Assembly (NCBI GenBank): GCA_019635275.1
Contig: JAHBZV010000025.1
Coordinates: 1 to 43,770, forward strand
DNA length: 43,770 nucleotides
Direction: 5' to 3'
Source of the DNA: Burkholderiaceae bacterium
GTDB taxonomy: Bacteria > Pseudomonadota > Gammaproteobacteria > Burkholderiales > Burkholderiaceae_E
Both the position numbers and the translations under genes were made by a program. Below are positions 8,475-27,416 of this stretch, one piece after another; the stretch's first letter is position 1; every line of letters starts with the position of its first letter. The notes under the pieces are model-generated. The model had not been told where the DNA came from. It searched no databases and was given only the letters and a program-made list of their open reading frames with translations.

Positions 8475-8505
8475 ACGGGGCGCCGCGGCCGGCGAGCGTT
8501 GGCGC

Positions 8506-10155: not shown

Positions 10156-10163
10156 CGAGTTGC

Positions 10164-11153: not shown

Positions 11154-11182
11154 CGTGGGTCTCCGGTCGTTGGAATGATCGT

Positions 11183-12913
11183 TCAGGCCGACTGGTCGCC
11201 GGCGATCAGGCTCTGTCCGGGCCGAACCCGGGTGAAATTCACGGGCTCGCGGCCGATGCTCACCGCGCCGTCGTGCAAGCGCGCCACCGTGTAGGTCGAT
11301 TGCTCGAGGTCACCGGTCTCCGGATGGTCTTCGCGGAAGTGCGCGCCCCGCGAATCCCCGCGCGCGATCGCCGCGGCGGCGATGACGCGGCTCACCGAGA
11401 CCAGGCTGCGCAGGTTCAGCCAGTCGTGCCAGCTCAGGTTGAACGCGCGCCCCGCATCGGCGACCCCGGTTCGCGACAGCTGCGCGTCGAGCTCGCCGAG
11501 CCGCGTCGCGGCGCGCCGCAGGCCGTCGGCGGTGCGCAGGATGCCGACGTCGTTCCACATGCACTCGTAGAGCGACTCGCGGATCGCTTCGACGTCGCCG
11601 ACCGGCAAAGAGAACGGCGCCTCGTGCGCGGCGATGCTGCGTTCGATCGCCGCCATGTCGGGCTCGCGATGTCGCGCATGCTCGCGGACCCACGCGGCCA
11701 TGCTCTCTCCGGCGATGCCGCCGAAGACAGTGGAGTTGGCGACCCCGTTGCCACCCAGCCGATTCGCCCCGTGCACGCCGCCGGTGTCCTCGCCGGCGGC
11801 GAACAGGCCGGGCAGCTGCGTCGTGCAGTCGGCATCGAACACCACGCCGCCCATCATGTAGTGCGCGGTCGGAACGACCTCGACCAGGCCGCCGGCCAGG
11901 TCGAATCCGCAATCGGCACAGCGCTCGACCATCCCCTTGAACATCCGGCGCACGTTGTCGGGCCCGAGGTGGTGCATCTGGATGTAGACGCCGCCGTTGG
12001 GCGAGGTGCGGCCCGCGCGCATCTCCGAATAGATCGAGCGCGAGACGATGTCGCGCGTCGCGCGCTCGGCGCGCGGGTCGTAGCGCTGCATGAAGCGCTC
12101 GTTCGCGCCGTTCAGCAGCTGCCCGCCCGCGCCGCGCAGCCCTTCCTCGAGCACCGTTCCGGTCATCCGCGTGCCGGGCCCCGCGAGCAGGCCGGTGGGG
12201 TGGAATTGCACCATCTCCATGTCGCGCAACGCGAGCCCGGCGCGCAGCGCCATCGCCAGGCCGTCGCAGCTCTTGTCGCCCGACGGCGTGTGGTACTTGT
12301 ACATCGTCGGCCCGCCGCCGGTGGCCAGCAGCACCGCCTTCGCCTGCACGAAGACGAAGTCGCCGGCGCGCATGTCGATCATCAGCACGCCCGCCAGCGC
12401 CGACCCGTCGGCGGTGCGCACCAGCTCGATCGCGCGATGCTCCTCGAGCCGGCCGATGCCGCGCGACCAGACCTGCTCGGCGAGCCGGTTGATGATCTCG
12501 ATGCCGGTCAGGTCGCCCTTGTGCACCGTGCGATCGAAGGTCTGTCCGGCGAACGCCTTCTGGTGGACCGTGCCGTCCGGGTTGCGATCGAAGAAGCATC
12601 CGAGCTCGTTCTCGAGTTCGTGGATGCGCTCGACCGCCCCGGTGACCAGCGTCCAGGCGAGCTCCTGGTTCGACAGCCACTTGCTGCCTTCGATCGTGTC
12701 CATGAAGTGACGCTCGACCGAGTCGCCTTCTGCGATGGCGACGTTGTAGCCGCCCTGGACCATCCGCGTGCAGCCGCTCTTGCCGAGCAGCCCCTTCACC
12801 GCGACGGTGATCGACAGCGCGGGATTGGCCTGGTGCGCGTGCAGTGCCGCGAACAGGCCGGCCCCGCCGGAACCCAGGATGAGGATGTCGGTCTGAAGCC
12901 GGCGCAACCTCAC
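11183..12913 (-). CDS. Succinate dehydrogenase/fumarate reductase-like flavoprotein lacking the covalent-FAD His
   Basis: A 576-residue flavoprotein of the SdhA/FrdA/L-aspartate oxidase family. The N-terminal dinucleotide motif is DILILGSGGAGLFAA. Dicarboxylate-site landmarks are kept: QFHPTG, ERFMQRY, RDIVSRS, TAHYMMGGV and GANRLGGNG. Two features are unusual. The residue aligned with the His that carries 8-alpha-histidyl FAD in SdhA/FrdA is Cys48 (SGCTRMVQGG). The loop after HPTG is longer and ends in LEEGLRGAGG, where SdhA/FrdA has a Thr before the Glu. FAD is therefore probably non-covalent and the substrate pocket altered. GTG 12913 overlaps the upstream hydratase stop (GTGA). Its partner Fe-S and membrane subunits are encoded 2.6-4 kb upstream in the same operon. 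It is not a canonical sdhA. Confidence 0.85.
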   Translation of the reverse strand: MRLRRLQTDILILGSGGAGLFAALHAHQANPALSITVAVKGLLGKSGCTRMVQGGYNVAIAEGDSVERHFMDTIEGSKWLSNQELAWTLVTGAVERIHELENELGCFFDRNPDGTVHQKAFAGQTFDRTVHKGDLTGIEIINRLAEQVWSRGIGRLEEHRAIELVRTADGSALAGVLMIDMRAGDFVFVQAKAVLLATGGGPTMYKYHTPSGDKSCDGLAMALRAGLALRDMEMVQFHPTGLLAGPGTRMTGTVLEEGLRGAGGQLLNGANERFMQRYDPRAERATRDIVSRSIYSEMRAGRTSPNGGVYIQMHHLGPDNVRRMFKGMVERCADCGFDLAGGLVEVVPTAHYMMGGVVFDADCTTQLPGLFAAGEDTGGVHGANRLGGNGVANSTVFGGIAGESMAAWVREHARHREPDMAAIERSIAAHEAPFSLPVGDVEAIRESLYECMWNDVGILRTADGLRRAATRLGELDAQLSRTGVADAGRAFNLSWHDWLNLRSLVSVSRVIAAAAIARGDSRGAHFREDHPETGDLEQSTYTVARLHDGAVSIGREPVNFTRVRPGQSLIAGDQSA

Positions 12914-13526: not shown

Positions 13527-14402
13527 TCAGAATCCGAACGTGACGCCGTCGGGCCCGAACGTCGCGGTCGCGCGTCGCGCCGAATGGCACTGCATGTTCA
13601 CTGCGACCGGGTTCATCGTGATGTGCGTCGCAGCGAGCTCGACGTGCACCGCGAAGGACGTCGAGTCGCCGCCCAGCCCCTGCGGGCCCACACCGAGCCG
13701 GTTGACCGCTGCGCTCAACTGTTCCTCGATTTTCGCGCCTTCCGGGTCGCCGCAACGGCTGCCGAGCTCGCGCGTGGCCGCGCGCTTGGCCAGCGCCACG
13801 CACAGGTCGGACGTGCCGCCGATGCCCACGCCGACGATCGTCGGCGGGCAGGTCTTGCCGCCTGCCGCGATCACGCAGTCGACGACGAAGGTCTTGATCG
13901 CGTCGACCCCTTCGGCGGGGATCGCCATCTTCAGGAACGAGTTGTTCTCCGAGCCGCTGCCCTTGGGCACCATCTCGATCGACAGCGTGTCGCGGCGGTC
14001 GCTGAAATCGACGTGGATCACCGGCACCTCGATGCCGCACGAGGTGTGCTCGTTGCGGCGGGTGAGCGGGTGCACGACCGACGACCGCAACGGATGCTCG
14101 CGCGTCGCGCGCTCGCAGCCGTTGCGGATCGCCTGCTTCAGCGCGTGGCCGTCGACCTCGACGCCGCTGCCGATCACCACGTTGTAGATCGGGATGCCGG
14201 TGTCCTGGCAGAGCAGGTTTCCGGTGTCCTCGGCCACCCTGATGTTGGTCACCATGGTGGCCAGCACGCCCTGCGCGGTGCGGTCGGTTTCGCCCGCCGA
14301 CAGGCGCGCGAAACCGTCCTTGATATCCGGCGGAAGGATCTTCAGCGCCCGGATGTAGAGTTCCCTGGCGGCGTCCTCGACCGCGGACAGATCGATCTTC
14401 AA
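13527..14402 (-). CDS. Class I fumarase/tartrate dehydratase-type hydratase, alpha subunit
   Basis: A 291-residue alpha subunit (fumarate hydratase N-terminal domain). Cys residues that can hold the [4Fe-4S] cluster occur in LLCQDTGIP, HTSCGIEVP and GGKTCPPTIVG; the first and last are family signatures. PKGSGSENNSFLKM and GVGIGGTSDLC are also typical. The start is TTG at 14402, with a GAGG about nine bases upstream; no better start fits between it and the previous stop at 14418. It lies immediately after a Bug receptor gene and before the beta subunit. With the SDH-like genes it gives a dehydrogenation-then-hydration pair acting on a diacid. Confidence 0.88.
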   Translation of the reverse strand: MKIDLSAVEDAARELYIRALKILPPDIKDGFARLSAGETDRTAQGVLATMVTNIRVAEDTGNLLCQDTGIPIYNVVIGSGVEVDGHALKQAIRNGCERATREHPLRSSVVHPLTRRNEHTSCGIEVPVIHVDFSDRRDTLSIEMVPKGSGSENNSFLKMAIPAEGVDAIKTFVVDCVIAAGGKTCPPTIVGVGIGGTSDLCVALAKRAATRELGSRCGDPEGAKIEEQLSAAVNRLGVGPQGLGGDSTSFAVHVELAATHITMNPVAVNMQCHSARRATATFGPDGVTFGF

Positions 14403-15477: not shown

Positions 15478-15876
15478 TCAACCGATCAGCGCCAGCGCGA
15501 AAGCGAGGCCCGCGACGATTCCCAGGCCGGCGGCTGCGGCGATCCAGTTCTTGCGCAGCCCCGACCACGGCTTGAATTCGATCACGAGCAGCCGCAGGCC
15601 ACCAGTCAGGTGAATCGCTAACAGGACGACCAGGCACCACTCGCCGAACTTGAACAGCGGCTGGTCCGCGAAGCGCAGGAAGCCGTCGAGCGCGGCCTCG
15701 CCGCGCAGCGCCTGGCCGAGCGCCCAGAAGTGCAACGGCAGGAACGCGGCCAGTGCAATGCCCGACAGTCGATGCGCGAGGAACGCCCACCATGCCGGAT
15801 GGCTGCGGGCGCGAAAGTCGTTGCGGCGCGCCGCGCGACGCGGTTGCGGCACGGCGGGGCCGCTCGCCGTGCTCAT
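15478..15876 (-). CDS. Succinate dehydrogenase-like membrane anchor (cytochrome b-type), second subunit
   Basis: A 132-residue integral membrane protein with three predicted membrane segments. SHPAWWAFLAHRLSGIALAAF carries the HRxSG motif typical of SdhC-type cytochrome b556 anchors. His49, at the end of the first segment, and His89 (LLAIHLTGG), in the second, are placed to bind heme b. The ATG overlaps the stop of the preceding anchor gene (ATGA). With that gene and the Fe-S subunit it should dock the flavoprotein to the membrane and exchange electrons with quinone. The family is short and poorly conserved, so the call relies partly on context. Confidence 0.8.
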   Translation of the reverse strand: MSTASGPAVPQPRRAARRNDFRARSHPAWWAFLAHRLSGIALAAFLPLHFWALGQALRGEAALDGFLRFADQPLFKFGEWCLVVLLAIHLTGGLRLLVIEFKPWSGLRKNWIAAAAGLGIVAGLAFALALIG

Positions 15877-16214
15877 GCGACCACCGCGTAGACGGCCCGC
15901 AGGCCCAGCGCCGCGAGCGCGAGCGCCACCGCGACCGCGGCGACGTTGCTGCGTCGCGCGCCCCAGCCGAGCCACTCCTCGGCGATGCGCGCGAGCCCGA
16001 TCGGGACGTGCACCGCGCAGGCGAGCACGAACGCGCCATAGAACGCCGCGACCAGCCAGTTGCCCTGGGTGCGGGAGAGGATCTCGGCGCCGCTCAGCCC
16101 GCCGCGGACCGCATAGACGATCGTCGCGAGGTGAACCGCGACGAAGAGCGCGAGCACCATCGCGCTCAGGCGCTGGAGGTACCAGAGCCGGGCCTGCGTG
16201 GCGGCGGAACTCAC
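15873..16214 (-). CDS. Succinate dehydrogenase-like membrane anchor, first subunit
   Basis: A 113-residue membrane protein with three predicted transmembrane segments (about 15-36, 54-76 and 92-112). His28, in VLALFVAVHLATIV, and His69, in LACAVHVPIG, occupy equivalent positions in the first two segments. QRLSA resembles the HRxSG motif of cytochrome b anchors. The start is GTG 16214, preceded by GAGGGG, 38 bases after the Fe-S subunit stop. Both anchors carry a His pair, so the complex could hold two b hemes; this is inference from the residues. Confidence 0.78.
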   Translation of the reverse strand: MSSAATQARLWYLQRLSAMVLALFVAVHLATIVYAVRGGLSGAEILSRTQGNWLVAAFYGAFVLACAVHVPIGLARIAEEWLGWGARRSNVAAVAVALALAALGLRAVYAVVA

Positions 16215-16252: not shown

Positions 16253-16969
16253 TCAGAGTTCGCCGCGCATCGCGCGTCGCGCCGCGACGCGCTTGAGGCC
16301 GGAGATCCCGGCGGTCGGCTCGATCGCCTTCGGGCAGCGCTCGCTGCACGAGCCCTGCGTGTGGCAGGCGTGGCAGCCCGCGTCGCCGGCCACCGCGCGC
16401 AGTCGCTCCTTCTGGTCGACGTCGCGCACGTCGTTCACCAGCGTCCACGCGCGGTTGAGCGCGGCGGGCCCCAGGTAGTCGGGGCGCCACGCGACCACGT
16501 CGCACGACGCGTAGCAGACGCCGCAACCGATGCACTCGATTCCGGCGTTCGCCGAGACGCGCTCGGGCGATGCCGGCTCGACCCGCGCAAAGTCGTCGTG
16601 GCGCGTCGTCGCGCCGCGGAACCTCCCCTTCGCGCGCGCCCACTTGTCGAAGAACTCGCCCATGTCGGTCGCCAGGTCCTTGATGACCGGCAGGTTCGAC
16701 AGGGGCGCGATCTCGAGCGAGTCGCCGTCGACGACCTTCGACACGTGCGTGCGGCAGGTCCAGCGCGCGACGCCGTTGACGGTCATCGCGCACGAACCGC
16801 ACATGCCGACGCGGCACGAGAAGCGATAGCTCAGCGTCGGCTCGAGCCTGCGCTGGATGTAGGTGACGACGTCGAGCACGGTCTGGCTGGCCTGCCGCGG
16901 CACCTCGTAGGTGGAGAAGCCGCCGTCGGCGCCGCCGCGCCAGACCTTGACGCGCAGGTGGGTGGACAT
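16253..16969 (-). CDS. Succinate dehydrogenase/fumarate reductase-like iron-sulfur subunit
   Basis: A 238-residue electron-transfer subunit. The N-terminal ferredoxin domain has the [2Fe-2S] pattern CRVGMCGSC plus a distal Cys in RWTC. The C-terminal domain has CIGCGVCYASC for a [4Fe-4S] cluster and CHTQGSCSERCP for a [3Fe-4S] cluster, giving the full three-cluster relay of SdhB/FrdB. The Pro normally after the fourth Cys of the [4Fe-4S] motif is Asp here. It is the first gene of the operon running to 8506. There is no Shine-Dalgarno in front of the ATG; instead the shared promoter/operator element ends only five bases upstream, so the mRNA may be leaderless. Electrons should pass from the flavoprotein at 11183-12913 to the membrane anchors. 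Confidence 0.92.
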   Translation of the reverse strand: MSTHLRVKVWRGGADGGFSTYEVPRQASQTVLDVVTYIQRRLEPTLSYRFSCRVGMCGSCAMTVNGVARWTCRTHVSKVVDGDSLEIAPLSNLPVIKDLATDMGEFFDKWARAKGRFRGATTRHDDFARVEPASPERVSANAGIECIGCGVCYASCDVVAWRPDYLGPAALNRAWTLVNDVRDVDQKERLRAVAGDAGCHACHTQGSCSERCPKAIEPTAGISGLKRVAARRAMRGEL

Positions 16970-17061: not shown

Positions 17062-18594
17062 TCAGACCCGAGCCGCAACCCGGGCGAACCGTGCGGAGCG
17101 GCGCATCCGGGCCAGCGCGCGCACGATCGGCCAGAACAGGCCGATGAGCGCCAGGACCATCACCACGCCGCTGATCGGGCGGCGGAACAGGATGGTCCAG
17201 TCGTTGTCGAAGCTGACCATCAGCGTCATGAAGTTGGTCTCGGCCAGCGGACCGAGGATGGTGCCCAGCACCAGCGGCGCGATCGGAAACCTGAAGCGCT
17301 CGAACAGGTAGCCGACGAGCCCGAAGGCGGAGATCACGTACAGGTCGGACAGGCTGTTGCGCGCGGCGAACGCGCCGACGAAGCAGAACACGACCACGAA
17401 CGCCGAGACGATGGCTTCGGGCGCATCGAGCACCTTGCACAGCGGCTTGATCGCGAAGTAGCCCAGCACGCACATGCCGATGACCGACAGGAACACCGCC
17501 GCGAACACGGTGTAGACCAGGTCGGTGCTGCTCACGAACACCTGAGGCCCGGGCTGGATGCCGTGCAGCAGGAACGCCGCCAGGATGATCGCGGTGGCGC
17601 CGCTGCCCGGGATGCCCATCGCCAGCAGCGGCACGAGCGCGCCGCCGACCGACGCGGTGGCCGCCGACTTGGCGACGACGATGCCCTCGGGCGCGCCGGT
17701 GCCGAGCTGCTTGCGGTTCTTGCCGTACTGGCTCTCCAGCCCGTAGGCGACGAACGCGGAGACCGTCGCCCCGGCGCCGGGCACGATGCCGACCACCACG
17801 CCGGTGAGCGTGCCGCGCAGCAGCGTGTACTTCATCCGCACGATCTCGGCCCATCGCGGCAGCGCCGTGCGAAAGCGCGCCTGCCCGTCGCCGGCCTCGC
17901 CGGGCTCGGCGGCGAAGCCCGCGCGCAGCCGCGTGAGCACCTCGCCGATCCCGTAGGCGCCCACCATCACCAGCAGGAACTCGATGCCGTCGAGCAGGAA
18001 CGGCTGGCCGAACGCAAAGCGCTCGGCGCCGTAGATCGAGTCGACGCCGACCGTCGCGATCAGCAGCCCCATGCACAGGCTGATCAGCGAGTTCACCACC
18101 GAGTCGCCCGACAGCGCGACCACGCTGATCAGGCCGAAGAACACGATCGCGAAGAACTCCGGCGACGAGAAGCTCAGCGCCATGTGCGCCACCGGCTCGG
18201 CCATCGCCACCATCATCACCGCCGAGGCGATCCCGCCGATGAACGAGGCCATCAGCGACCACCCGAGCGCCTTGGCAGCCTGCCCCTTGCGCGTCATCTC
18301 GTAGCCGTCCCACAGCAGCGGAACGTCCATCGGCTCGCCGGGGATCCGGAACAGGATCGACGTGATCGCGCCGGCGTACGTGCCCGACGCGTACATCGCC
18401 GTGAGGAGGATCAGCCCGGGACCCACCCCCATCTTGTAGGTGAACGGCAGCGCGAGGACGACGCCCATCACCAGCGTCAGCCCGGGCAGCACCGCCACCA
18501 GCATGCCCAGCACCAGCCCGATCAGCAGCACGAGGAAGTGAACCGGCGAGAGCACCGTGAGGATGCCGCCGAACAGGTGCGTCAACACGTCCAT
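17062..18594 (-). CDS. tctA: Tripartite tricarboxylate transporter large membrane subunit TctA
   Basis: A 510-residue TctA-family permease with about 11-12 hydrophobic segments. Family signatures visible are GLVLGMLVAVLPGLT near the N-terminus, FRIPGEP with YASGTYAGAITSI, and the matching second-half motif VVGIVPGAGATVSAFVAYGLES, all Gly/Pro-rich ligand-site loops. MGIPGSGATAIIL repeats the theme. It is the last gene of the tctC-tctB-tctA set, 13 bases after tctB. It forms the ion-coupled channel for uptake of a carboxylate delivered by a Bug protein. The gene symbol follows the family; citrate is not implied. Confidence 0.93.
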   Translation of the reverse strand: MDVLTHLFGGILTVLSPVHFLVLLIGLVLGMLVAVLPGLTLVMGVVLALPFTYKMGVGPGLILLTAMYASGTYAGAITSILFRIPGEPMDVPLLWDGYEMTRKGQAAKALGWSLMASFIGGIASAVMMVAMAEPVAHMALSFSSPEFFAIVFFGLISVVALSGDSVVNSLISLCMGLLIATVGVDSIYGAERFAFGQPFLLDGIEFLLVMVGAYGIGEVLTRLRAGFAAEPGEAGDGQARFRTALPRWAEIVRMKYTLLRGTLTGVVVGIVPGAGATVSAFVAYGLESQYGKNRKQLGTGAPEGIVVAKSAATASVGGALVPLLAMGIPGSGATAIILAAFLLHGIQPGPQVFVSSTDLVYTVFAAVFLSVIGMCVLGYFAIKPLCKVLDAPEAIVSAFVVVFCFVGAFAARNSLSDLYVISAFGLVGYLFERFRFPIAPLVLGTILGPLAETNFMTLMVSFDNDWTILFRRPISGVVMVLALIGLFWPIVRALARMRRSARFARVAARV

Positions 18595-18607: not shown

Positions 18608-19195
18608 TCAGCTCACGCCCAGCAGGCGCAGCAGCGCCAGCGACAACTCGCGAAAGGGCCCCGCACCCAGCGGCAGCGAGATGTAGGCCACGCGCATGAA
18701 GATCACGATCAGCAGGAAGCTGCCCGCGACGCCGATGCCCGCTGCCAGCAGCGGGCGCCTGAACCCCCCGATCAGCATGAACGCCACCAGGAACACCGCC
18801 GTGGCCACGAAGAAGCCGAGCCAGTCGACGCCGAGCGCGAACGCTGCGATGAGGACGATCCCGGCCAGCAAGCGTCCCGGGTGCTCGCGCTGCGCCGGCG
18901 GCGCCACCTCGGCCTCCGGCGCCGGCTCGGCCGGCGCCGGCTCGGCCGGGTTGTGGTCGACGTCGCCCGTGAGCCCCTCGGCGGTGAACGTCGTCTTCAC
19001 GAGCAGGCGCTTGACGACCTCGTAGACACACAACGCGCCCATGATGACGATGATCGCCTTCGGCCAGAACTCCGGGCCGATGCGCCGACCGCCCTCGGCG
19101 CCACGCGTGTCGATCTGCAGCGCCGCCCAGTACAGCAGCACCGAAACCAGCAGCATCACCAGGTGCGGCAGCACCCGCCTCATGCGGTGGGTCAT
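18608..19195 (-). CDS. tctB: Tripartite tricarboxylate transporter small membrane subunit TctB
   Basis: A 195-residue TctB-family protein with four predicted membrane segments. The first is near residues 9-26, a second (IIVIMGALCVYEVV) is about 48-61, and two or three lie in the C-terminal half (LLAGIVLIAAFALGV, FFVATAVFLVAFMLIGG, SFLLIVIFM). RIGPEFWPKAI is characteristic. Between the halves is a Pro/Ala/Glu linker (AEPAPAEPAPEAE) encoded by a short tandem repeat. It lies 22 bases after tctC and 13 before tctA. It assists TctA in the membrane; the family is variable in sequence. Confidence 0.85.
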   Translation of the reverse strand: MTHRMRRVLPHLVMLLVSVLLYWAALQIDTRGAEGGRRIGPEFWPKAIIVIMGALCVYEVVKRLLVKTTFTAEGLTGDVDHNPAEPAPAEPAPEAEVAPPAQREHPGRLLAGIVLIAAFALGVDWLGFFVATAVFLVAFMLIGGFRRPLLAAGIGVAGSFLLIVIFMRVAYISLPLGAGPFRELSLALLRLLGVS

Positions 19196-19217: not shown

Positions 19218-20174
19218 TCATCTGGCGCTCGCGTGCTTCTTCATCGCCTCGAGCTCGCCACGCAGGAACGCCATCGCGTCCTTCGCCGGGATGTAGCTGT
19301 CCGCGTCGGCGAGCTGGTCCTCAAGATATCGCGCATAGTCCGCTGACTTCGCGACCTTCGCGAGTTCGTCCGAGAGCAGCTTCACCTTCTCGGGATCGGT
19401 GCCCGCCTTCACGGTGACCATGCGGAACTGGGGCATCGTGATGTCGAAGCCGAGTTCCTTCGAGACCGGCACCCCGGCGAACGCAGGGTGCCGCTTCTCG
19501 CCGAACAGGATCACCGGCCGCATCTGCTTGCCGTCGATGAAGTTGCGCACGTCGCCCGGCTGCTCGTAGAGCAGGTCGGCGTGTCCGCCGAGGATCGCCG
19601 AGTAGCGCTCGCCGGGCTTGGCGAAGGGCACGCTCACAAGTTTGAGGCCGCGGCGCACGAAATAGTTGACCGTCATGTCGTCAGGGCTGCCGAACCCGGT
19701 GACTGCGACCTTGAGCGGTCGCGTCTTCGCCTCGCGCTCCACGTCCGCCCAGGTCTTGATCGGGCCGTTCTCGGCCGCCAGGAAAGCCGAGGGCTGCCGG
19801 ATCATGATCGCCACCGGGACCAGCGCGTCGAGGCTCCAGCTGGGGTGCGGGTCCGCCAGCAGGCCGAAGGTATCGCCGGTCATGATCGAAATCGTGTAGC
19901 CGTCGGCGGGGGCCGACAGCATCTTGTTCAGGCCGGTTCGCCCGGTTGCGCCGGGCACGTTGATGACCGGAAACGACGCCTTCAGGCTGTCTTCGAGCAT
20001 CTTGCCGGCCTTGCGTGCGACCGCGTCGGCACCGCCTCCGGGCCCCCAGGGCACGATGAACTCGACCGGCCGCGATGGGTACTTCTCCTGCGAGCGGGCG
20101 GCTGGCGACACGACGGACAGGGCCGCCGCCGATACGATCCCGGCGACGACGGCTCTTCTCGTGATCGAATGCAT
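19218..20174 (-). CDS. tctC: Tripartite tricarboxylate transporter receptor TctC (Bug family)
   Basis: A 318-residue periplasmic receptor with a signal peptide at about 1-28 (ITRRAVVAGIVSAAALSVVSPAARS; the Arg pair makes Tat export possible but not proven). YPSRPVEFIVPWGPGGGADAVAR contains the ligand-binding PWGPGGG loop, and PADGYTISIMTG matches the family DGYT motif. GAGGAGACC precedes the ATG. Immediately followed by tctB and tctA, it forms the full high-affinity uptake system of this operon. It is one of three Bug proteins in 10 kb. Confidence 0.92.
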   Translation of the reverse strand: MHSITRRAVVAGIVSAAALSVVSPAARSQEKYPSRPVEFIVPWGPGGGADAVARKAGKMLEDSLKASFPVINVPGATGRTGLNKMLSAPADGYTISIMTGDTFGLLADPHPSWSLDALVPVAIMIRQPSAFLAAENGPIKTWADVEREAKTRPLKVAVTGFGSPDDMTVNYFVRRGLKLVSVPFAKPGERYSAILGGHADLLYEQPGDVRNFIDGKQMRPVILFGEKRHPAFAGVPVSKELGFDITMPQFRMVTVKAGTDPEKVKLLSDELAKVAKSADYARYLEDQLADADSYIPAKDAMAFLRGELEAMKKHASAR

Positions 20175-20204: not shown

Positions 20205-21194
20205 TCAGCGGACGCGCAAGAGAAGCTTTCCACGGCTCTCGCCGGCCTCCAGGAAGCGGTGCGCATCGGCCGCCTCCTCGAGGGGAAACACCCGATCGAT
20301 CGTGACCTTCAGGCGCCCTTCGCCGGCCCAGCGGAACAGGTCGCCGGTGCGTCGCAGGATCTCTTCACGGTCGGCCGTGTAGTCGGCGAGGTGGGGTCGG
20401 GTGAAGAACACCGAACCGGCCTCGCCCAGCTCGATCGGCTCGATCGAGGGCACCGGCCCCGAACTCGCGCCGTACAGGATGCAGGTGCCACGGCGGCGCA
20501 GGCTGCGGATGCTGCGCGCGATCGTGTCGATCCCGACCGAGTCGTAGACCACGTCGACGCCGCGCCCACCGGTGAGGCGGCGCACCTCGTCGCGGAAGTC
20601 CTGGGTGCGATAGAGGATGACCTCGTCGGCGCCGCGGGCGCGCGCGATCGCCGCCTTCTCCTCGCTGCCCACCGTCGCGATCACGCGCGCGCCCCGCAGC
20701 CTGGCGACCTGGGTCAGAAGCTGCCCGACCCCGCCGGCGGCCGCGTGAACCAGGCAGGTGTCGCCGGGTTCGAGCGCGAACGCCGAGTGCGCCAGGTAGT
20801 GCGCGGTGCAACCCTGAAGCATCAGCGTCACGGCCACCTCGTCGGAGACGCCGCCGGGCACCGGCACGGCGCGCCACGCCGGCACGCACGCATACTGCGC
20901 GTAGCTCCCGCGCGAGAGGCACCAGGCCACCCGATCGCCCGGCGCCACGCCGGTGACCCCCTCGCCCAGCGCCGACACGCGCCCGACGCCCTCCATGCCG
21001 AGCCCCATCGGCAGCGGTGTCCGATACGTCTGCGACTTGGCGTAGGTGCCGTTGCGCATGTAGATGTCGATGAAGTTCAGCCCGGCCAGGCTGACCTCGA
21101 CCTGCACCTCGCCGGGCCCCGGCGCGGGCGCGTCGATCTCGCGCAGGGTCATCTCGTCGGGCGCGCCGAAGCGGTCGATCCGGATCGCGCGCAT
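20205..21194 (-). CDS. Quinone oxidoreductase-type zinc-independent MDR enzyme
   Basis: A 329-residue member of the medium-chain dehydrogenase/reductase superfamily, NADPH:quinone reductase (QOR) branch. The N-terminal GroES-like domain has GLNFIDIYMRNGTY and GMEGVGRV, and the Rossmann domain has VHAAAGGVGQLLTQVAR. The catalytic and structural zinc Cys clusters of alcohol dehydrogenases are absent. The ATG shares one base with the glmE-type stop (TGATG), so the genes are coupled. In this setting it may reduce an enone or enoate-type intermediate with NADPH rather than act on a quinone. The substrate is not determinable here. Confidence 0.85.
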   Translation of the reverse strand: MRAIRIDRFGAPDEMTLREIDAPAPGPGEVQVEVSLAGLNFIDIYMRNGTYAKSQTYRTPLPMGLGMEGVGRVSALGEGVTGVAPGDRVAWCLSRGSYAQYACVPAWRAVPVPGGVSDEVAVTLMLQGCTAHYLAHSAFALEPGDTCLVHAAAGGVGQLLTQVARLRGARVIATVGSEEKAAIARARGADEVILYRTQDFRDEVRRLTGGRGVDVVYDSVGIDTIARSIRSLRRRGTCILYGASSGPVPSIEPIELGEAGSVFFTRPHLADYTADREEILRRTGDLFRWAGEGRLKVTIDRVFPLEEAADAHRFLEAGESRGKLLLRVR

Positions 21195-22720
21195 CAGGAT
21201 TCGCTCCCGCGCGCCGGCGCGTCCTTCGCCCATCCGTCGGACAGCAGCACGCCGAGCGGCTCGGATAGCTCGTAGACACTGGAAACGGCGAGGTCGTAGC
21301 CCATGTCGAGCTTCTCGCGGCTGGCCCTGCGCGCCAGCCGCGCCCGATGTTCCTCGAGCACGTCGGCTTCGATCGGCACCGCGCCGGCGTCGAGGATGCG
21401 CAGGTATCCGTCGGCATCGCGGGCAGGCAGCACGCGCGATGCCACCTGGCGGTTCGGCGACCAGGGAACGTCGAGCACGCCGGCCTCGAACGCCCTAACC
21501 GTGCCGATCGCTACGTCGCCCTCACCCATCTCGAGCACGCGTTCGACGATGCCGCGCACCTCGCGCCGGATCAACGCCTTCTCGCGCTCGTAGTCGGGGA
21601 GCCCGTCGAGGCGCAGGTTGCGCGCCAGATAAATCGCCATGCGCGTCATCCGCAGGCCTTCGGCGTTGGCCTCCGGTGTCGGAATGCCGAGCGCCTCATG
21701 GGTCGACTTGGTCGTCACCGACACCGCACCGCCGACCGCCGCCACGGTGCCGCCGTAGGCGACCAGCGCCGCTGCCTGTGCCTCGTCGTGCGGCCACGCG
21801 CCCATCCAGTGCAGCGAGGTGATCGGCGTCTCGACGCCGGCGTAACCGCGCTTGCCCAGGTACTCCTGGGCCATCTCCTCGCAGACCGCGATCGCCGCGG
21901 CGTCCTGCACCAGATGCAGCGTCTGCCCGAGCTCGAGCCCGTACTGCTTCACGCCCTGGGCTGCGGCAAGCAGGCAGTCGAGCACCGCAATCGCGATCGC
22001 GATGCACGGCGGGATGTTGGTACCGGTGAGGAACCCCGGCTGGCGGCGATGCAGCAGCACGCCACGCCGGGCATACAGCGCCGCGAGCCGGTCGAGGTAC
22101 TGATAGTTTCGGATGCCGTCCTCGATCGAGTATTCCTTCGTGTACGAAGTCGTGTACGCGATGCCGGACCCGAGAAAGCCGGTGTAGCCGGCCGCGTAGC
22201 CGATCTCGCCGACCAGCTTCGGCATCGCGGTGCCGGTCAGCATGATCGCGGGCTTGTCGATCGCCTCGACCAGTTCTCGGCACGCGGCGACGCCGTAGTT
22301 GACGATCGGAAAGCCGTTCAGCAGCGACCGGCCGGCCGCCTCGGACTCCTCCGATCCCCGCCCGGCCTGCGCGAAATGCTCGTTGCGGGTGTAGCTGTCG
22401 GTCGTCGTCGGCACGATGTCGGCGAGGCCTTCACGATCGAGCGCCTGCATCAGCGCCTTCTGCAGCCGCAGCGTGCCGAAGCCGCCGCGAGGCTGCGTCA
22501 GGCAGCGACGCTCGGCCTTCGCCCGCCGCAGCACCTCGGCAAGCCGCTTGTGGCTCGCGAGGCCGAGGTGGAACTCGACCGCCTCATCGAGGTCGACCGC
22601 CGCACCGGTCGGCCAGCGCGCCAGGTTCTCGGCGCGCATCGCGTCGAATTCGTCCCAGGGAATCGCCGCCTCGCCGAGCGGCCGCTTCGTGCGAAGCGAC
22701 TCCGACATCACGCTAGCCAT
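21194..22720 (-). CDS. Glutamate mutase epsilon-like subunit (B12 carbon-skeleton mutase) with altered substrate site
   Basis: A 508-residue TIM-barrel catalytic subunit of the methylaspartate (glutamate) mutase type. Compared from memory with Clostridium cochlearium GlmE, the alignment is ungapped from QPR to KSTHE with an offset of 12. Arg78 and Arg112 match Arg66 and Arg100, Tyr189 and Tyr193 match Tyr177 and Tyr181, and Lys338 and Glu342 match Lys326 and Glu330. Leu161 stands at Arg149 (carboxylate binding) and Leu183 at Glu171 (amino-group contact). The codons are CTG (22240-22238) and CTC (22174-22172). The coenzyme-handling residues are therefore kept while the substrate pocket changed. 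It is encoded directly after the GlmL-like gene (eight-base overlap) and pairs with the GlmS-like subunit. Annotating it simply as glutamate mutase would probably be wrong. Confidence 0.88.
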   Translation of the reverse strand: MASVMSESLRTKRPLGEAAIPWDEFDAMRAENLARWPTGAAVDLDEAVEFHLGLASHKRLAEVLRRAKAERRCLTQPRGGFGTLRLQKALMQALDREGLADIVPTTTDSYTRNEHFAQAGRGSEESEAAGRSLLNGFPIVNYGVAACRELVEAIDKPAIMLTGTAMPKLVGEIGYAAGYTGFLGSGIAYTTSYTKEYSIEDGIRNYQYLDRLAALYARRGVLLHRRQPGFLTGTNIPPCIAIAIAVLDCLLAAAQGVKQYGLELGQTLHLVQDAAAIAVCEEMAQEYLGKRGYAGVETPITSLHWMGAWPHDEAQAAALVAYGGTVAAVGGAVSVTTKSTHEALGIPTPEANAEGLRMTRMAIYLARNLRLDGLPDYEREKALIRREVRGIVERVLEMGEGDVAIGTVRAFEAGVLDVPWSPNRQVASRVLPARDADGYLRILDAGAVPIEADVLEEHRARLARRASREKLDMGYDLAVSSVYELSEPLGVLLSDGWAKDAPARGSES

Positions 22721-24119
22721 GCGCGTTCTCCTCCTCGAGTTGGACCAGGCTCGACCGCGCGAGCGCGAAAGCAGCCGCCGGCTCGCATTCCGCGAGCAGC
22801 CCGGCGGCGTAGAGCAGGTAGTCGCGATCGAGCCACAGGGCGGCCGCGCGCGGCGCGAGCGACGACGGATCGCGGCCGTCGGCGAGCGCCGCCGAGAGCA
22901 GGGCGTGCGGCTCGGGTGCCGCTGCGAGCACCCCGCCGGTGCCGATCACCGCGTTCAGCCGGGTCAGGTCCTTGCCGCGCTGGACGCGCACCGGGCCCTG
23001 CGCCGTGTAGACGGTCTCGATGCGCCCGGCGTGCCGCGCGACCGCGATGCGCACCGCCGCGCCGGCCAGCGCGCGATCGATCGCGCGCTCCTCGTCGTCA
23101 CGGGGCAGGCGGCCGACGTCGCGCGCCAGCTCCTCGACCAGTTCGCGCGTGCGCGCGGCGCCGAGACCGGCGTCCCGGGCGATCGACTCGAGCCCCGCGA
23201 CCTCGACGATGGTCAGCGCATTGTGCCGCATGCCGAGGTCGCCCTCGACGGTCCGCTTGGCGTAGGGCTCGGGAAGCCCGTACGGCAGCACGCCGGGCTC
23301 CGCCGGCTCGCCCTTGCCGATCGAGTGTACGTCGGTCGTCGCACCGCCGGGGTCGATCACCATCAGGTCGCCGAGTCCGCGCTCGCCGCCGGCGCCTTCG
23401 GCGAGCAGCCGCGCACCCTCGAGCACTGCGGCCGGGGTCGGCATCAGCACCCGGTCGAATTTGGCCTGCGCGCGGTCGATGCCCTTGGCGGTGACGATCC
23501 GCGCCATGAACAGCTCGCGGATCGCCTTGCGCGCCGGCTCGATCGACAGCACGTTCAGCTCCGGCATGACGTTGTCGGTCACGAGCGCGAGCTTGCCCGC
23601 CGCGGCGAGGCTCTGCGCGACCTCGTCGGCAGCCTCGCGGTTGCCGGCGACCACGAACGGACAGCCGAGATTGCTGGCGGCCAGCGCGCGGGCGTTGTGG
23701 AGAATGACGTCGCTGTTGCCCCCGTCGGTGCCGCCGCACAGCAGCAGCAGGTCGGGGGCGAGATCCGCCAGGCGACGCAGATCGCTCGCCGTGAGGCGGT
23801 AGGCGAAGCTGCCGACCAGCTTCGCGCCGGCGCCCAGTGCGGCCTGCCGCGCAGCCTCGGCAGTCAGCTCGCGCACCAGTCCGACGGTGGCCATCCGCAG
23901 GCCGCCGGCGGCGCTGCTCGAGGCGAGCCGGTAGCGAAACCCCGGCAGCCCGCCCAACTCGACGGCGAGACCGGCGAGCGCGGCATCCAGCCCCAGGTTG
24001 ACGTCGCTGGTCACGGTCGACGGCGCCTGCGCCGTCGCGACGATCCGGCAGGCGTCGAGGTCGACCGCACGCAGCTTCGTGAACGTGCTGCCGAAGTCGA
24101 TGAGCAGAGCGGCGCTCAT
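22713..24119 (-). CDS. GlmL/MutL-family protein (mutase accessory ATPase)
   Basis: A 468-residue protein of the GlmL/MutL family, encoded between the two subunits in most glutamate mutase operons. The ASKHA-type nucleotide motif is at the N-terminus (ALLIDFGSTFTKLRAV). A second phosphate motif is VIDPGGATTDVHSIG, with LLLCGGTDGGN and VIGTGGVLAA also typical. GlmL is not needed for catalysis by the purified enzyme and is thought to protect or reactivate the B12 holoenzyme. The name is unrelated to DNA mismatch-repair MutL. The ATG overlaps the glmS-like stop (ATGA). Confidence 0.9.
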   Translation of the reverse strand: MSAALLIDFGSTFTKLRAVDLDACRIVATAQAPSTVTSDVNLGLDAALAGLAVELGGLPGFRYRLASSSAAGGLRMATVGLVRELTAEAARQAALGAGAKLVGSFAYRLTASDLRRLADLAPDLLLLCGGTDGGNSDVILHNARALAASNLGCPFVVAGNREAADEVAQSLAAAGKLALVTDNVMPELNVLSIEPARKAIRELFMARIVTAKGIDRAQAKFDRVLMPTPAAVLEGARLLAEGAGGERGLGDLMVIDPGGATTDVHSIGKGEPAEPGVLPYGLPEPYAKRTVEGDLGMRHNALTIVEVAGLESIARDAGLGAARTRELVEELARDVGRLPRDDEERAIDRALAGAAVRIAVARHAGRIETVYTAQGPVRVQRGKDLTRLNAVIGTGGVLAAAPEPHALLSAALADGRDPSSLAPRAAALWLDRDYLLYAAGLLAECEPAAAFALARSSLVQLEEENAHG

Positions 24120-24556
24120 GCCTGCCGGCTGCGCGGCGTCTCGGCGCGCGCCCCAAAGTCCTGCGCCAGCGCCTCGAGCACCGCCTCGACGCGGGTACCG
24201 GGCGGGAAGGCACGGTCGAAGCCCATGTCGAGGAACTTGCGCTCGACCTCCGCCCAAGGCGTCTTGCCGACCACCAGGTTGCCGCCGACGTAGATCAGGA
24301 CGTCCTCGAGCCCGGCCTCGATGCACAGGTCGCGAAACCCCCGGCAGTCGATCTCGCCCTGCCCGTACAGCGACGAGACCATGATGCCGTCGGCGTCGGT
24401 CTCGATCGCCGCCTTGACGAAGTCCTGGGCCGGCGTCAGCGCGCCGAGCGCGACGACTTTGTAGCCGGCCTTCTCGAGCGCGAGACTCAGGATCCGGTTG
24501 CCGACGATGTGCGTGTCGGCGCCGATGACTCCCGTCACCAGCGTGCGCTGCTTCAT
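24116..24556 (-). CDS. Glutamate mutase sigma-like subunit (B12-binding)
   Basis: A 146-residue cobalamin-binding subunit. The base-off/His-on motif is complete: Asp14, His16 and Gly19 in GVIGADTHIVGNRIL, where His16 replaces dimethylbenzimidazole as the lower cobalt ligand. VSSLYGQGEID and IYVGGNLVVGK line the nucleotide-tail pocket. It looks canonical along its whole length, unlike its catalytic partner. The ATG overlaps the stop of the enolase-superfamily gene (ATGA). It assembles with the GlmE-like subunit to bind adenosylcobalamin, so the host must make or import B12. Confidence 0.93.
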   Translation of the reverse strand: MKQRTLVTGVIGADTHIVGNRILSLALEKAGYKVVALGALTPAQDFVKAAIETDADGIMVSSLYGQGEIDCRGFRDLCIEAGLEDVLIYVGGNLVVGKTPWAEVERKFLDMGFDRAFPPGTRVEAVLEALAQDFGARAETPRSRQA

Positions 24557-25647
24557 GCGGGTCTCCCCCCCTGTCGATCGATCTCGTAGCGCGCCAGCGC
24601 AACCTCATCGGGGGCGCCGCAGAACCCCGGCTGAAGGACGATCGCGCCGTCTTCGAAGGCGAGCGGCCGCCCGAACAGCCCCGCGTGCGGCTTGAGGAAG
24701 CCGTTCATCTCGCCGGCGTTGTCGATGTGACGCGCGGCGACGCAGGCCTCCATCCAGCAGCCGAGATCGCAGGCCACGCCGTTTCCGAGCACCGGGATCA
24801 TGCCAAGCGCGCGGATCCTTTCGACCGCCGCGACGAGGCCGTCCAGGCTCACCAGCTTCATCAGCTTGACCTTGACGTAGCGGGCGGCGCCGAGCCGCGC
24901 GGCACGCTCGATGTCGGACAGCCCGTAGATCGATTCGTCGAGCATCAGCGGCACCGTCGAGTGCGGCACCACCGACATGTGCGCGTCCCAGTCGCCGGCC
25001 GCGCACGGCTGCTCGAAGAGCTCGATGTCCGCCGGGTCGAGCGCGCCTGCGAAGCGCCGTGCCTGCTGCGCCGTGTAACCCTGGTTCGCATCCAGGCGCA
25101 GGCGGGCGCGCCCCGCCACGCGCGCCTGGATCAGCGCGACGCGCCGCAGGTCGGACTCGACGTCGAAACCGACCTTCACCTTCAGCGTCCGGTAGCCCGC
25201 GCCGAGCAGCCGTTCGATCTCGGCCTCGAGCGCGCCGTCGTCGGTCTCGTTGAGGATGCCCAGGATCGGCACCCGGGTCGGCGCGTCGACCGTCAGGAGC
25301 GGGTGGGCATGCAACGCATCGAGCGCGGTCATGAACGCGGTCGCGAGAAACGGCGAGGACGGCGCGACCGGCAGCACCTTGCGGGCAACCTCGCGCGCCG
25401 ACGCCCCGGCCAGCGCCGTCGCGAGCGCACGCGCCCCGTCCCATGCGCCCTCGATGGTTTCGTCGGTGTAGCCGGTCAGCAGCGTGGCCTCCCCGGCCCC
25501 GCGGCGACCCGCGTCGTCGTGCATCAGTACGACCACCGTGTCGAAGGCCGTGACCGGGCCGAAGGCCAGCTTGTACGGGCGAACCAGCGGCACCCGCAGG
25601 CGGACGACCTCGATCCGGATCGGCGCGTCGCGCGGTTCGGTCGTCAC
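24553..25647 (-). CDS. Enolase-superfamily enzyme, muconate lactonizing-type subgroup
   Basis: A 364-residue capping-domain plus TIM-barrel enzyme. The KxK motif is Lys156-Val-Lys158. Metal ligands are Asp186 (LRLDANQGY), Glu212 (ELFEQP) and Asp237 (MLDES), and the opposite-face Lys is Lys261 in VKVKLMK. This is the MLE subgroup pattern (cycloisomerases, o-succinylbenzoate synthase, N-acylamino acid racemase, dipeptide epimerase). Methylaspartate ammonia-lyase, the usual partner of glutamate mutase, is also an enolase relative but has a different active-site layout, so it is not the obvious match. GTG 25647 overlaps the TauE/SafE stop (GTGA). It likely abstracts a proton alpha to a carboxylate of a pathway intermediate. 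Confidence 0.88.
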   Translation of the reverse strand: MTTEPRDAPIRIEVVRLRVPLVRPYKLAFGPVTAFDTVVVLMHDDAGRRGAGEATLLTGYTDETIEGAWDGARALATALAGASAREVARKVLPVAPSSPFLATAFMTALDALHAHPLLTVDAPTRVPILGILNETDDGALEAEIERLLGAGYRTLKVKVGFDVESDLRRVALIQARVAGRARLRLDANQGYTAQQARRFAGALDPADIELFEQPCAAGDWDAHMSVVPHSTVPLMLDESIYGLSDIERAARLGAARYVKVKLMKLVSLDGLVAAVERIRALGMIPVLGNGVACDLGCWMEACVAARHIDNAGEMNGFLKPHAGLFGRPLAFEDGAIVLQPGFCGAPDEVALARYEIDRQGGRPA

Positions 25648-26387
25648 GTCGCAGCCCTCGCAACCAGCAGCGCCCCGCCCGCGAGCGCAATCCACAGCAG
25701 CGCACGATTGAATCCTTCGCCGCTCAGCCGGTCGAAGACCTTCAGCCCCAGGAACATCCCGAGCAGTGCGATCGGCAGCGCCCACACCAGCAGGCGGCCG
25801 GTGTCCTCGCGGAAACCGACGATGCCGGCGATGCAGGCGATCGTGATCAGGTGCGTGTACATGCCGAACGGTTGCGCGATCGCGCGCTGCTCCTCCTTGC
25901 TCCAGCCGCGGGCACTCCACCACAGCGCGGGCACGATGATCGACAGGCCGCTGGTGCCGCCCATGACCCCGCCGACGAATCCGACCGTCGTGTCGGCCGC
26001 CGGTCCCGCCAGCGCCGGCACGCGAACGCGCAGCCCGCGCGGCATCCGCATCGCCAGCAGCGCGTAGCCGACCAGCACCGAGCCGATCGCGACACGCACG
26101 GTCGAGGCGTCGAGGCGTGCCAGCGCAAGCGCGCCCAGCGGGACTCCGAGCGTGCTGCCGACGGCGAACGGCAGCATCCGGCGCCAGGCGAAATGCTGCC
26201 TGAAGCGCGGCAGCAGGATCAGGTTCATCGCCAGCGGGATGACGATCACCAGCGCGACGATGCTCGCCGGCGCGAATGCCTGCAGCCAGATCGCCGAAGC
26301 GACGATGCCGAACGAGAAGCCGGCGATGCCGAAAGTCAACGATCCGGCGAGCGCCCCGGCGATCAGCACGACCAGGTCGGTGTCCAT
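25644..26387 (-). CDS. TauE/SafE-family membrane permease
   Basis: A 247-residue hydrophobic protein of the TauE/SafE family. It shows about eight membrane segments in two halves. The first contains LAGSLTFGIAGFSFGIVASAIWL and the second AADTTVGFVGGVMGGTSGLSIIV, the duplicated Gly-rich signature. ATG 26387 is chosen over an upstream ATG at 26465 because the protein then starts at the first membrane helix, and GGAGA lies about ten bases upstream. It is the first gene of the operon, divergent from the LysR gene. It is probably an exporter or importer of an organic anion linked to the pathway; the direction is unknown. Confidence 0.85.
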   Translation of the reverse strand: MDTDLVVLIAGALAGSLTFGIAGFSFGIVASAIWLQAFAPASIVALVIVIPLAMNLILLPRFRQHFAWRRMLPFAVGSTLGVPLGALALARLDASTVRVAIGSVLVGYALLAMRMPRGLRVRVPALAGPAADTTVGFVGGVMGGTSGLSIIVPALWWSARGWSKEEQRAIAQPFGMYTHLITIACIAGIVGFREDTGRLLVWALPIALLGMFLGLKVFDRLSGEGFNRALLWIALAGGALLVARAAT

Positions 26388-26510: not shown

Positions 26511-27416
26511 ATGTCCTCGATCCGCACGATGAAGACCTTCCTCGCGGTCGTCAGGCACGGCAGCTTTGCGGCCGCCGGCGGCGAAATCGGGCTGAGCGCC
26601 GCCGCGGTCGGCCTGCAGATGCGCGCGCTCGAGGAGAGCCTGAAGCAGCAGCTGTTCGACCGCAGCGGCCGCTCGGTCGTGCTGAACACCGCCGGCCGGC
26701 GCGCGATCCCCCGGATCGAGGAACTGGTGATGCGCTACGAGGAGCTGATCGGCGGCCGCGACGGCGACGCGCTTTCCGGAACGATCGTCATGGGCGCGCT
26801 GGTGTCGACCCTGATGGGCGCCTTCGCCGACGCGCTGTGGTCGCTCAAGCGCGAGAACCCGGGGCTCGAGGTCAAGCTGTTCGCCGGCCAGTCGAGCGAC
26901 TTCGCGAACCGCGTCGAACAGGGGTTGCTCGACGCGGCGATCGTCACCCGCCCGCCGCGCCCGCTGCCGCGCAGCCTGGCCTGGACGCAGCTCTATGTCG
27001 AGCCGATGGTGATGATCGTCCCGCGTCACCCGCACTTCGACCTGCCCAGGGATCCGCTGCAGGCGTTGCGCCAGGCGCCTTTCATCCGCTTCGACCGCGA
27101 GACCTGGACCGGGCTGCTGGTGAAGGACGTGCTGAGCCAGTGCGGGGCCGAGGTTCGCGACGAAATGGAACTGAACTCGGTCGAGGCGATCCTGGCGATC
27201 GTGCGCCAGGGCTTCGGCGTGTCGATCGTCCCGAAGCTCGCCAACGTGCGCTGGTCCGAGGACCGCGAGCTGCGTGTCGTCGAGTTGCCCGACGTCGACG
27301 TACGCCGGCGCGTGGGGCTGCTCGAGCGTTCGCGCCATGCGCGCATGCGCTTCACCGGCGCGATCAAGCGGTACTTTGCCGACGCCGGGCAACGCGCGAG
27401 GGCGCGCGCCCGCTGA
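26511..27416 (+). CDS. LysR-family transcriptional regulator
   Basis: A 301-residue LysR regulator. The N-terminal winged helix-turn-helix is at about 1-60 (MKTFLAVVRHGSFAAAGGEIGLSAAAV, then ALEESLKQQLFDRSGR). The periplasmic-binding-protein-like effector domain follows, with GALVSTLMGAFADAL and a typical FGVSIVPKLAN near the C-terminus. The ATG at 26511 fits the family's start. It is divergent from the permease-enolase-mutase operon. Copies of one element in front of that operon and in front of the SDH-like operon suggest it controls both, probably with a pathway acid as co-inducer. Confidence 0.9.
   Translation: MSSIRTMKTFLAVVRHGSFAAAGGEIGLSAAAVGLQMRALEESLKQQLFDRSGRSVVLNTAGRRAIPRIEELVMRYEELIGGRDGDALSGTIVMGALVSTLMGAFADALWSLKRENPGLEVKLFAGQSSDFANRVEQGLLDAAIVTRPPRPLPRSLAWTQLYVEPMVMIVPRHPHFDLPRDPLQALRQAPFIRFDRETWTGLLVKDVLSQCGAEVRDEMELNSVEAILAIVRQGFGVSIVPKLANVRWSEDRELRVVELPDVDVRRRVGLLERSRHARMRFTGAIKRYFADAGQRARARAR

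Follow-up and report, generated by a model that had tools for sequence, protein, structure and literature searches.

A glutamate-mutase-type B12 enzyme with an altered substrate pocket, encoded in a recurring transporter-linked operon with a possible connection to organosulfonates

The stretch of DNA analysed here (the window, 43,770 nucleotides) spans positions 1 to 43,770 of contig JAHBZV010000025.1 of a Burkholderiaceae bacterium (assembly GCA_019635275.1) and carries a locus for a glutamate-mutase-type, B12-dependent enzyme, whose catalytic subunit MutE provides the sole PF06368 match in a profile search of the genome (G000, 87% complete). Nine minus-strand genes follow one another in series from 26387 to 17062, in the order TauE/SafE, MR_MLE, mutS, mutL, mutE, MDR, TctC, TctB and TctA (Table 1), and the first six of these, from TauE/SafE to MDR, overlap end to end when the assumed starts are used. 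The spacing of the nine genes points to a single transcript and hence to an apparent nine-gene operon. Profile searches found no Xsc, SauS or SuyAB among the nine operon genes.

Table 1. Features of the mutase locus in the window.
Feature	Position	Strand	Basis
mutE/glmE-like catalytic subunit, 508 aa; L161/T162/L183 for R149/H150/E171, R226 for E214	21194..22720	-	PF06368, TIGR01503, AlphaFold2 fold
Accessory protein of mutL/glmL type, 468 aa; its ends overlap the start of mutE and the stop of mutS	22713..24119	-	NF040745 573 bits, cut-off 475
mutS/glmS-like B12-binding subunit, 146 aa, motif DTHIVG	24116..24556	-	NF002612 199.4 bits, cut-off 110
Enolase-superfamily (MR_MLE) enzyme, 364 aa if start is GTG 25647	24553..25647	-	PF13378 above cut-off
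TauE/SafE-family permease, opens the apparent operon; 4-bp overlap with next gene (assumed starts)	25644..26387	-	PF01925 80 bits, cut-off 32.6
MDR-family NADPH:quinone reductase-like (QOR-like) enzyme; start overlaps mutE stop	20205..21194	-	Below NCBIfam cut-offs of PRK10754 and PIG3
TctC-type solute-binding protein; sister clade consists of TctC proteins beside sauS	19218..20174	-	Profile match, tree
TctB-type subunit, tripartite tricarboxylate transporter	18608..19195	-	Profile match
TctA-type permease; closes the apparent operon	17062..18594	-	Profile match
Divergent LysR-type regulator	26511..27416	+	PF00126, PF03466

In a phmmer search the best PDB-chain match of MutE was the catalytic subunit GlmE of C. 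cochlearium glutamate mutase (1cb7/6h9e, E 1e-111), with residues 23-485 of the query aligned to GlmE residues 11-473 over 463 residues and zero gaps, the original prediction, made from the sequence alone, having maintained as much for the active-site region; because the alignment is gapless, the offset of +12 between the two numberings is exact throughout. Retained in MutE (GlmE numbering) are R66, T94, D96, R100, N123, Y177, Y181, M294, K326 and E330, among them all six residues earlier listed as kept (Arg66, Arg100, Tyr177, Tyr181, Lys326 and Glu330), while Arg149 is exchanged for Leu161, His150 for Thr162 and Glu171 for Leu183, so that the two leucines on which the prediction was built are confirmed. 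An AlphaFold2 model (mean pLDDT 83.7, pTM 0.87), computed from an input alignment of 14 sequences (ten members of the clade described below and four paralogues), superposes on 6h9e_B/1cb7_B with a TM score of 0.89 (query) or 0.94 (target) and an rmsd of 1.8 Å over about 470 columns, and Leu161 and Leu183 are the final residues of the predicted strands 158-161 and 181-183. As a check on whether an Arg and a Glu take the same spatial positions after all, this comparison operates at the level of fold and sequence. An alignment error as the origin of the two leucines is ruled out by the 463 gapless residues together with the fold match.

MutE scores above both family cut-offs, at 451.9 bits for TIGR01503 (cut-off 390.1) and 463.4 bits for PF06368 (cut-off 26.6), and on sequence criteria it is a member of this protein family, glutamate-mutase-like in every cofactor-side feature examined. 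Lys326 and Glu330, which we take to act at the cofactor, are kept in 16 of 16 clade members, and the B12-binding motif DTHIVG is present in all 15 clade loci searched for it. With the cofactor-side residues kept and a partner subunit that carries DTHIVG and scores well over its cut-off, the sequences support intact parts for adenosylcobalamin (AdoCbl) radical chemistry, and the earlier description of the small, sigma-like subunit as canonical stands.

The exchanged residues mark a single clade. In an alignment of 52 sequences, from which duplicates and the two frames of a frameshifted copy in a metagenome-assembled genome (MAG; L003/G469) had been removed, leucine occupies both positions 149 and 171 in 16 sequences, all of them with Thr150, Arg/His/Glu occurs at 149/150/171 in 20, and other combinations occur in 16; among the 36 sequences outside the clade, Leu171 appears alone in two (L051, L052) and Leu149 in none. 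The 16 Leu/Thr/Leu sequences, that of the window included, form one clade (ultrafast bootstrap support (UFBoot) 100, stem 0.73 substitutions per site), and nine canonical reference enzymes, each with Arg/His/Glu, fall with one Fusobacterium sequence into a separate group (support 96); seven of these nine were seen with an adjacent methylaspartate ammonia-lyase, GlmE itself and L007 standing outside that check. Nine clade members are 69-84% identical to the window protein. Searches that sampled one genome per species found the enzyme in three of the 74 genomes from the family to which the window belongs (G000, G458, G469), in 7 of the 399 genomes of an order sample and in 8 of 74 genomes of a family of related MAGs (f123), where G829 and G854 hold fragments only; the class and phylum samples, with any match in 5 of 369 and 6 of 398 genomes respectively, contained no clade member except that of the window's own genome. 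A scan of contigs gave four loci (L001-L004), three of which (L001, L003, L004) are apparently the same loci as in G458, G469 and G513, and the 17 clade loci compared below are the window, L001-L004 and L056-L067.

The gene is not decaying, in keeping with the earlier view. Comparison of mutE with an 84%-identical relative gives dN 0.10 and dS 0.70, that is, purifying selection, and dN/dS ratios of about 0.15 to 0.18 for mutE, mutL, mutS and the MR_MLE gene (window versus L001), together with the strict clade-wide conservation of the changed residues, rule decay out. In one MAG (L003/G469) mutE carries a frameshift (L003:9001-10520, near the equivalent of codons 342-364 of the window protein), which is likely to be a sequencing error because tctB and tctA there also match in two frames.

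Related uncultured genomes (L068-L075, L017, L018, L014) encode further glutamate-mutase-like proteins with other residues at positions 66/149/150/171; Q/N/S/S is found in L018, for example, and Y/R/I/T in L046. The mutase-like genes of L068-L075 adjoin TctC-like genes, no ammonia-lyase match was found there, and L070 has two such mutase genes in tandem (8404-9867 and 9919-11412). These proteins represent a wider radiation of putative B12 mutases.

The differences between the clade and the canonical enzymes extend well beyond the two leucines. At 54 positions the clade and the nine references carry different residues, with no more than one exception tolerated within either group, and several of these switches lie at the ends of barrel strands: Q147I, R149L and H150T at strand 4; S169G, E171L and G173S at strand 5; N212H (H224), E214R (R226), P215Q, F216P and P218F at strand 6; I248Y, T249G and G251E (E263) at strand 7; and V289T, H291L (L303) and Q292H (H304) at strand 8. 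At position 214 each of the nine references has Glu, and each of the 16 clade members has Arg (Arg226). Residue 226 of the AlphaFold2 model ends the predicted strand 224-226, a place from which it probably faces the pocket. Since Glu214 becomes a conserved arginine, the arginine claw that loses Arg149 may have gained Arg226 nearby, in which case an arginine has moved rather than vanished.

According to a crystallographic study of glutamate mutase, the glycyl group that migrates is bound by R66, R149 and E171, and the acrylate half by R100 and Y177 (PMC10947579). On this assignment the acceptor carboxylate still has its site in the clade and the migrating half still has one of its arginines, but the contact to the amine is gone. 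This favours a migrating group that has no ammonium and could yet be an anion; with several strands rebuilt and a conserved arginine newly placed where strand 6 ends, Arg226 may allow binding of a second anionic group. Loss of the ammonium contact is thus a sound deduction, given the role of E171 in the same source. The suggestion of an acid lacking the amino group, such as an unsubstituted or branched C5-C6 diacid, is not fully supported, since it took the two leucines as the only change, while several strands are rebuilt and Arg226 is new.

The Leu161/Leu183 pair defines a clade with ties to a gene neighbourhood, a point that the original prediction had raised. Among the 17 clade loci, MutS is present in 15 (L002 and L067 are cut on that side), MutL in 14 (with a partial copy in L002), the MR_MLE enzyme in 13, the QOR-like enzyme and a TctC belonging to the clade of the window in 9 each, and sauS in 6. 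Methylaspartate ammonia-lyase was found in none of the 17 loci, the search covering the loci themselves and not the remainder of each genome, whereas it lies 3' of mutE in all seven canonical loci inspected (Gemmobacter, Ensifer, Rhizobium, Peptoclostridium, Salmonella, E. coli and Prevotella). The MR_MLE enzymes and methylaspartate ammonia-lyase share a superfamily, and since the former recurs where the latter is missing, the MR_MLE enzyme appears to occupy its place. Both lysines that mark the muconate/dipeptide-epimerase subgroup (KVKVG, VKLMK) are present in it, as are the metal ligands, and it reaches the cut-off of no NCBIfam family. The annotated recurring neighbour clusters include no ammonia-lyase or transaminase, genes confined to single loci being annotated in part.

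Because the pocket is consistently rebuilt and has its own operon in several bacteria, a substrate other than glutamate is very probable. The reading that we favour, whose chance as a whole we put a little short of even, is that these genes encode a functional AdoCbl-dependent carbon-skeleton mutase of GlmE/GlmS architecture with a GlmL-type accessory protein, the pocket of which would accept another acid, most likely an organosulfonate. In this reading the substrate would be an imported anionic acid without an amino group, with an organosulfonate likelier than a plain diacid.

The evidence for a sulfonate comes from the transporter and the genes beside it. In six loci (L056, L060, L061, L063, L064 and L067, from two families) sauS, the gene for acylating sulfoacetaldehyde dehydrogenase, stands behind TctA or TctC and within about 10 kb of the mutase; SauS of L056 scores 789 bits against a cut-off of 600, and those of L060, L061, L063, L064 and G828 (the genome of L067) also exceed it, with a SucC-like ligase subunit following SauS in L061, L063, L064 and L067. 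Among plasmid matches to the window's TctC, a SauS-type dehydrogenase lies beside the transporter in each of the first nine records listed, seven of them from Azospirillum, the adjacency being read from coordinates. Three of these records (L116-L118) carry the annotation as well, and their dehydrogenases exceed the SauS cut-off. A tree built from 46 TctC proteins unites the 11 mutase-linked sequences in a clade (0.996) that is sister to three sauS-linked plasmid TctC proteins (0.987), a position that would fit a sulfonate-type transporter; branching next (0.996) is the TctC encoded alongside the best plasmid homologue of the MR_MLE enzyme, from Sulfitobacter (43% identity). Sampling for this tree was not neutral, the plasmid members having been chosen as top matches or as neighbours of MR_MLE homologues. 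The Sulfitobacter locus is annotated with a putative sulfate exporter, an acyl-CoA ligase, a carboxyltransferase, a CoA ester lyase and a MaoC-type dehydratase, and its record contains no MutE match. On the same plasmid (L115:10781-13050) the MR_MLE gene overlaps a full-length gene for methionine adenosyltransferase, a surprising companion in a catabolic operon. In one survey, a tripartite tricarboxylate transporter (TTT) encoded beside sau genes is termed a putative sulfoacetate transporter, SauXYZ (PMC12625764). Furthermore, xsc adjoins the MR_MLE gene in L057, two TauD-family genes are present in L059, and TauE-family matches occur in the window, L003 and L059. The window's genome carries one xsc and two sauS genes, on other contigs. 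At first sight xsc also seemed enriched, being above the cut-off in 13 of 16 mutase-bearing genomes (G507 and G831 are without it, and in G469 it is split over two frames) versus 24 of 200 genomes of the order sample, which contains five of the mutase-bearing genomes.

Several observations weigh against the sulfonate assignment. Five of the six sauS-linked loci come from the one family of related MAGs (f123), only L056 belonging to another, and the operon of the window itself lacks sauS or any other known sulfonate enzyme. The xsc of L057 (L057:13367-15178) has a second copy elsewhere in its MAG, on a different contig, and the two agree at 99.8% over 1812 bp. Curated cut-offs are missed by the TauD-like protein of L059, which scores 212 of 313 bits against taurine dioxygenase, and by the Sulfitobacter exporter, at 153 of 232.6 bits, and TauE-family permeases constitute a broad family. 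Within f123, xsc is present in 7 of 8 mutase-bearing versus 40 of 66 other genomes (p 0.13, G829 and G854 with their clade fragments counted among the 66) and sauS in 7 of 8 versus 23 of 45 sampled others (p 0.06); across all 79 genomes searched, sauS occurs in 14 of 16 mutase-bearing genomes versus 30 of 63 others (p 0.004, uncorrected for kinship). In the stretches examined, 4 of the 17 loci are without the MR_MLE enzyme and 8 are without TctC of the window's clade, and the genes for a succinate dehydrogenase (SDH)-like complex and class I fumarase downstream of the window operon would suit a diacid. Moreover, TctABC-sauS operons exist without the mutase (L131, L133, L134), so that the adjacency of mutase and sauS may join two separate units. 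Co-occurrence of xsc was dropped as strong evidence because the gene is common within f123 regardless; genome co-occurrence in general is accordingly weak evidence, and physical linkage is retained with the caveat of lineage, a binomial estimate for it being disregarded because it presupposes independent genomes. Homospermidine synthase, which lies between mutase and sauS in f123, also occurs beside sauS where no mutase is seen and was set aside as a bystander; the Ldh_2 and GD_AH genes of L001 were rejected as sulfolactate genes, being below curated cut-offs (218 of 500 bits, and 140 of 731 for galactarate dehydratase). On balance, the neighbourhood favours organosulfonates somewhat more than plain diacids.

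The principal competitor is a mutase of the same type that acts on a non-sulfonated diacid, interconverting glutarate and 2-methylsuccinate or 2-methyleneglutarate and 3-methylitaconate, the amino group being missing or replaced by CH2; the MR_MLE enzyme would then racemise or dehydrate the product, and the SDH-like complex and fumarase would process it. The charge balance is consistent with this, one positive and one negative side chain being lost at the site of the glycyl half, as is the fact that TTT systems commonly carry di- and tricarboxylates. The CoA ester lyase, MaoC-type dehydratase and acyl-CoA ligase of Sulfitobacter would likewise fit a route for a C5 diacid. Downstream of the window operon and on the same strand lie an SDH/fumarate reductase (FRD)-like set (16253-16969, 15478-15975 and a flavoprotein within 11183-12910) and a class I fumarase alpha gene (13527-14402); such neighbours, however, were seen at just two of the 17 clade loci, namely in the window and in L003, a close relative. 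The grouping of TctC with sauS-linked proteins and the recurrence of sauS, xsc and TauD-family genes near the mutase also speak against a plain diacid. In view of the co-occurrence figures, the duplicated xsc, the below-cut-off scores and the lack of a sulfonate enzyme in the window operon, the organosulfonate is kept at somewhat under one half, and the diacid is a possible but doubtful second.

A mutase for another amino acid, with the amine held otherwise, for example by Glu263, is improbable: the new conserved glutamate (G251E) and the histidines near strand ends would offer contacts, and GlmE-type members with other pockets are diverse, but position 171 is Leu in all 16 clade members and the recurring neighbour clusters, as annotated, offer neither ammonia-lyase nor transaminase. 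Loss of the carbon-carbon shift altogether, leaving a radical eliminase or a structural or regulatory protein, would agree with changed substrate-side and unchanged cofactor-side residues; the retention of the accessory protein, the S subunit and the recurring neighbourhood makes it very unlikely. Least probable of all is that the enzyme is still a glutamate mutase in which Leu161 and Leu183 are tolerated and glutamate is held by other residues. The protein does pass the TIGR01503 equivalog threshold, but methylaspartate ammonia-lyase is absent from the 17 clade loci, R149/H150/E171 are kept in all nine canonical references, and the replacements affect the very positions that hold the glycyl half in the crystallographic study (PMC10947579).

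For the favoured organosulfonate, a mechanism can be proposed by analogy with the route from glutamate to 3-methylaspartate and on to mesaconate and ammonia. TctABC would import an anionic acid without an amino group, and the adenosyl radical would take a hydrogen adjacent to the carboxylate, which Arg112 (R100) and Tyr189 (Y177) would hold. Arg78 (R66) and perhaps Arg226 would hold the remaining half, which would split off and re-add one carbon over, giving the net shift X-CH2-CH2-COO- <-> CH3-CH(X)-COO- and, in the case of a sulfonate, converting a gamma-sulfo acid into a beta-sulfo acid or the reverse. The product would be a carbon acid whose hydrogen at the alpha position can be removed by an enolase-superfamily enzyme, and the MR_MLE enzyme might act on this new alpha-hydrogen, in the manner of methylaspartate ammonia-lyase in the glutamate route, by beta-elimination (of sulfite, for example) or by epimerisation, with sulfite leaving through the TauE-family permease. 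In the opposite direction the mutase could linearise a branched sulfo acid, which beta-oxidation would take to sulfoacetyl-CoA, the substrate of SauS. A complete sulfonate counterpart of the methylaspartate pathway, in which 4-sulfobutyrate, to give one example, is converted to 3-sulfo-2-methylpropionate, MR_MLE eliminates sulfite and TauE exports it, is an unlikely though specific version of this scheme.

Beyond the operon, the window (minus strand) contains further genes of interest in their own right. Between 11183 and 16969, genes for SDH/FRD-like flavoprotein, iron-sulfur and cytochrome b subunits are interspersed among class I fumarase genes and a TctC gene, in an arrangement that is unusual. 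After this stretch comes a thiamine pyrophosphate enzyme whose nearest models are acetolactate synthase and 2-hydroxyacyl-CoA lyase, at scores below both cut-offs, and a caprolactamase alpha-like protein is encoded at 3241-5331 (712 bits against a cut-off of 1000).

To our knowledge, few B12 carbon-skeleton mutases have been described. If the proposed function is right, the glutamate-mutase fold would have a substrate beyond amino acids, and a B12-dependent route to cleavage of the C-S bond of organosulfonates would exist; the sulfonate assignment, if true, would add a radical step to the organosulfur cycle. The residue-level change in the pocket and the recurring operon make the question of the substrate testable, and an answer would correct the equivalog annotation, which at present gives the name 'methylaspartate mutase subunit E' to a protein that differs in all of its substrate-binding residues, partner enzyme and transporter.

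Compared with known systems, the assembly is closest to glutamate mutase (GlmES/MutES of C. cochlearium), with which it shares the fold, the subunit set, the B12 motif, the retained residues R66, R100, Y177, Y181, K326 and E330 and the GlmL-type accessory protein, and from which it differs in R149L, H150T, E171L, E214R and 50 further switches, in the lack of methylaspartate ammonia-lyase at the clade loci and in a different neighbourhood. With R149L and E171L in 16 of 16 members, the claw R66/R100/R149 and its companion E171 are broken throughout the clade, and by these sequence features, taken with the missing ammonia-lyase, we do not class the enzyme as glutamate mutase proper (EC 5.4.99.1). 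2-Methyleneglutarate mutase, a carbon-skeleton mutase for a glutamate-like acid with CH2 replacing the amino group, is a single-chain enzyme of other sequence and is likened here by description. The operon MR_MLE enzyme aligns with the dipeptide epimerase/muconate-lactonising subgroup at both lysines and the metal ligands, but matches its best solved structure, 1jpm, with just 87 bits and falls under every NCBIfam cut-off. Relative to sulfoacetate utilisation (SauXYZ, SauS, SauCD/SauT, Xsc), for which the available text mentions no mutase (PMC12625764), the window operon is without the sauS of that pathway; its TctABC nevertheless belongs to the sister clade of the sauS-linked TctABC, and 7 of the 17 loci have either sauS (six loci) or xsc (L057) no more than about 10 kb from the mutase.

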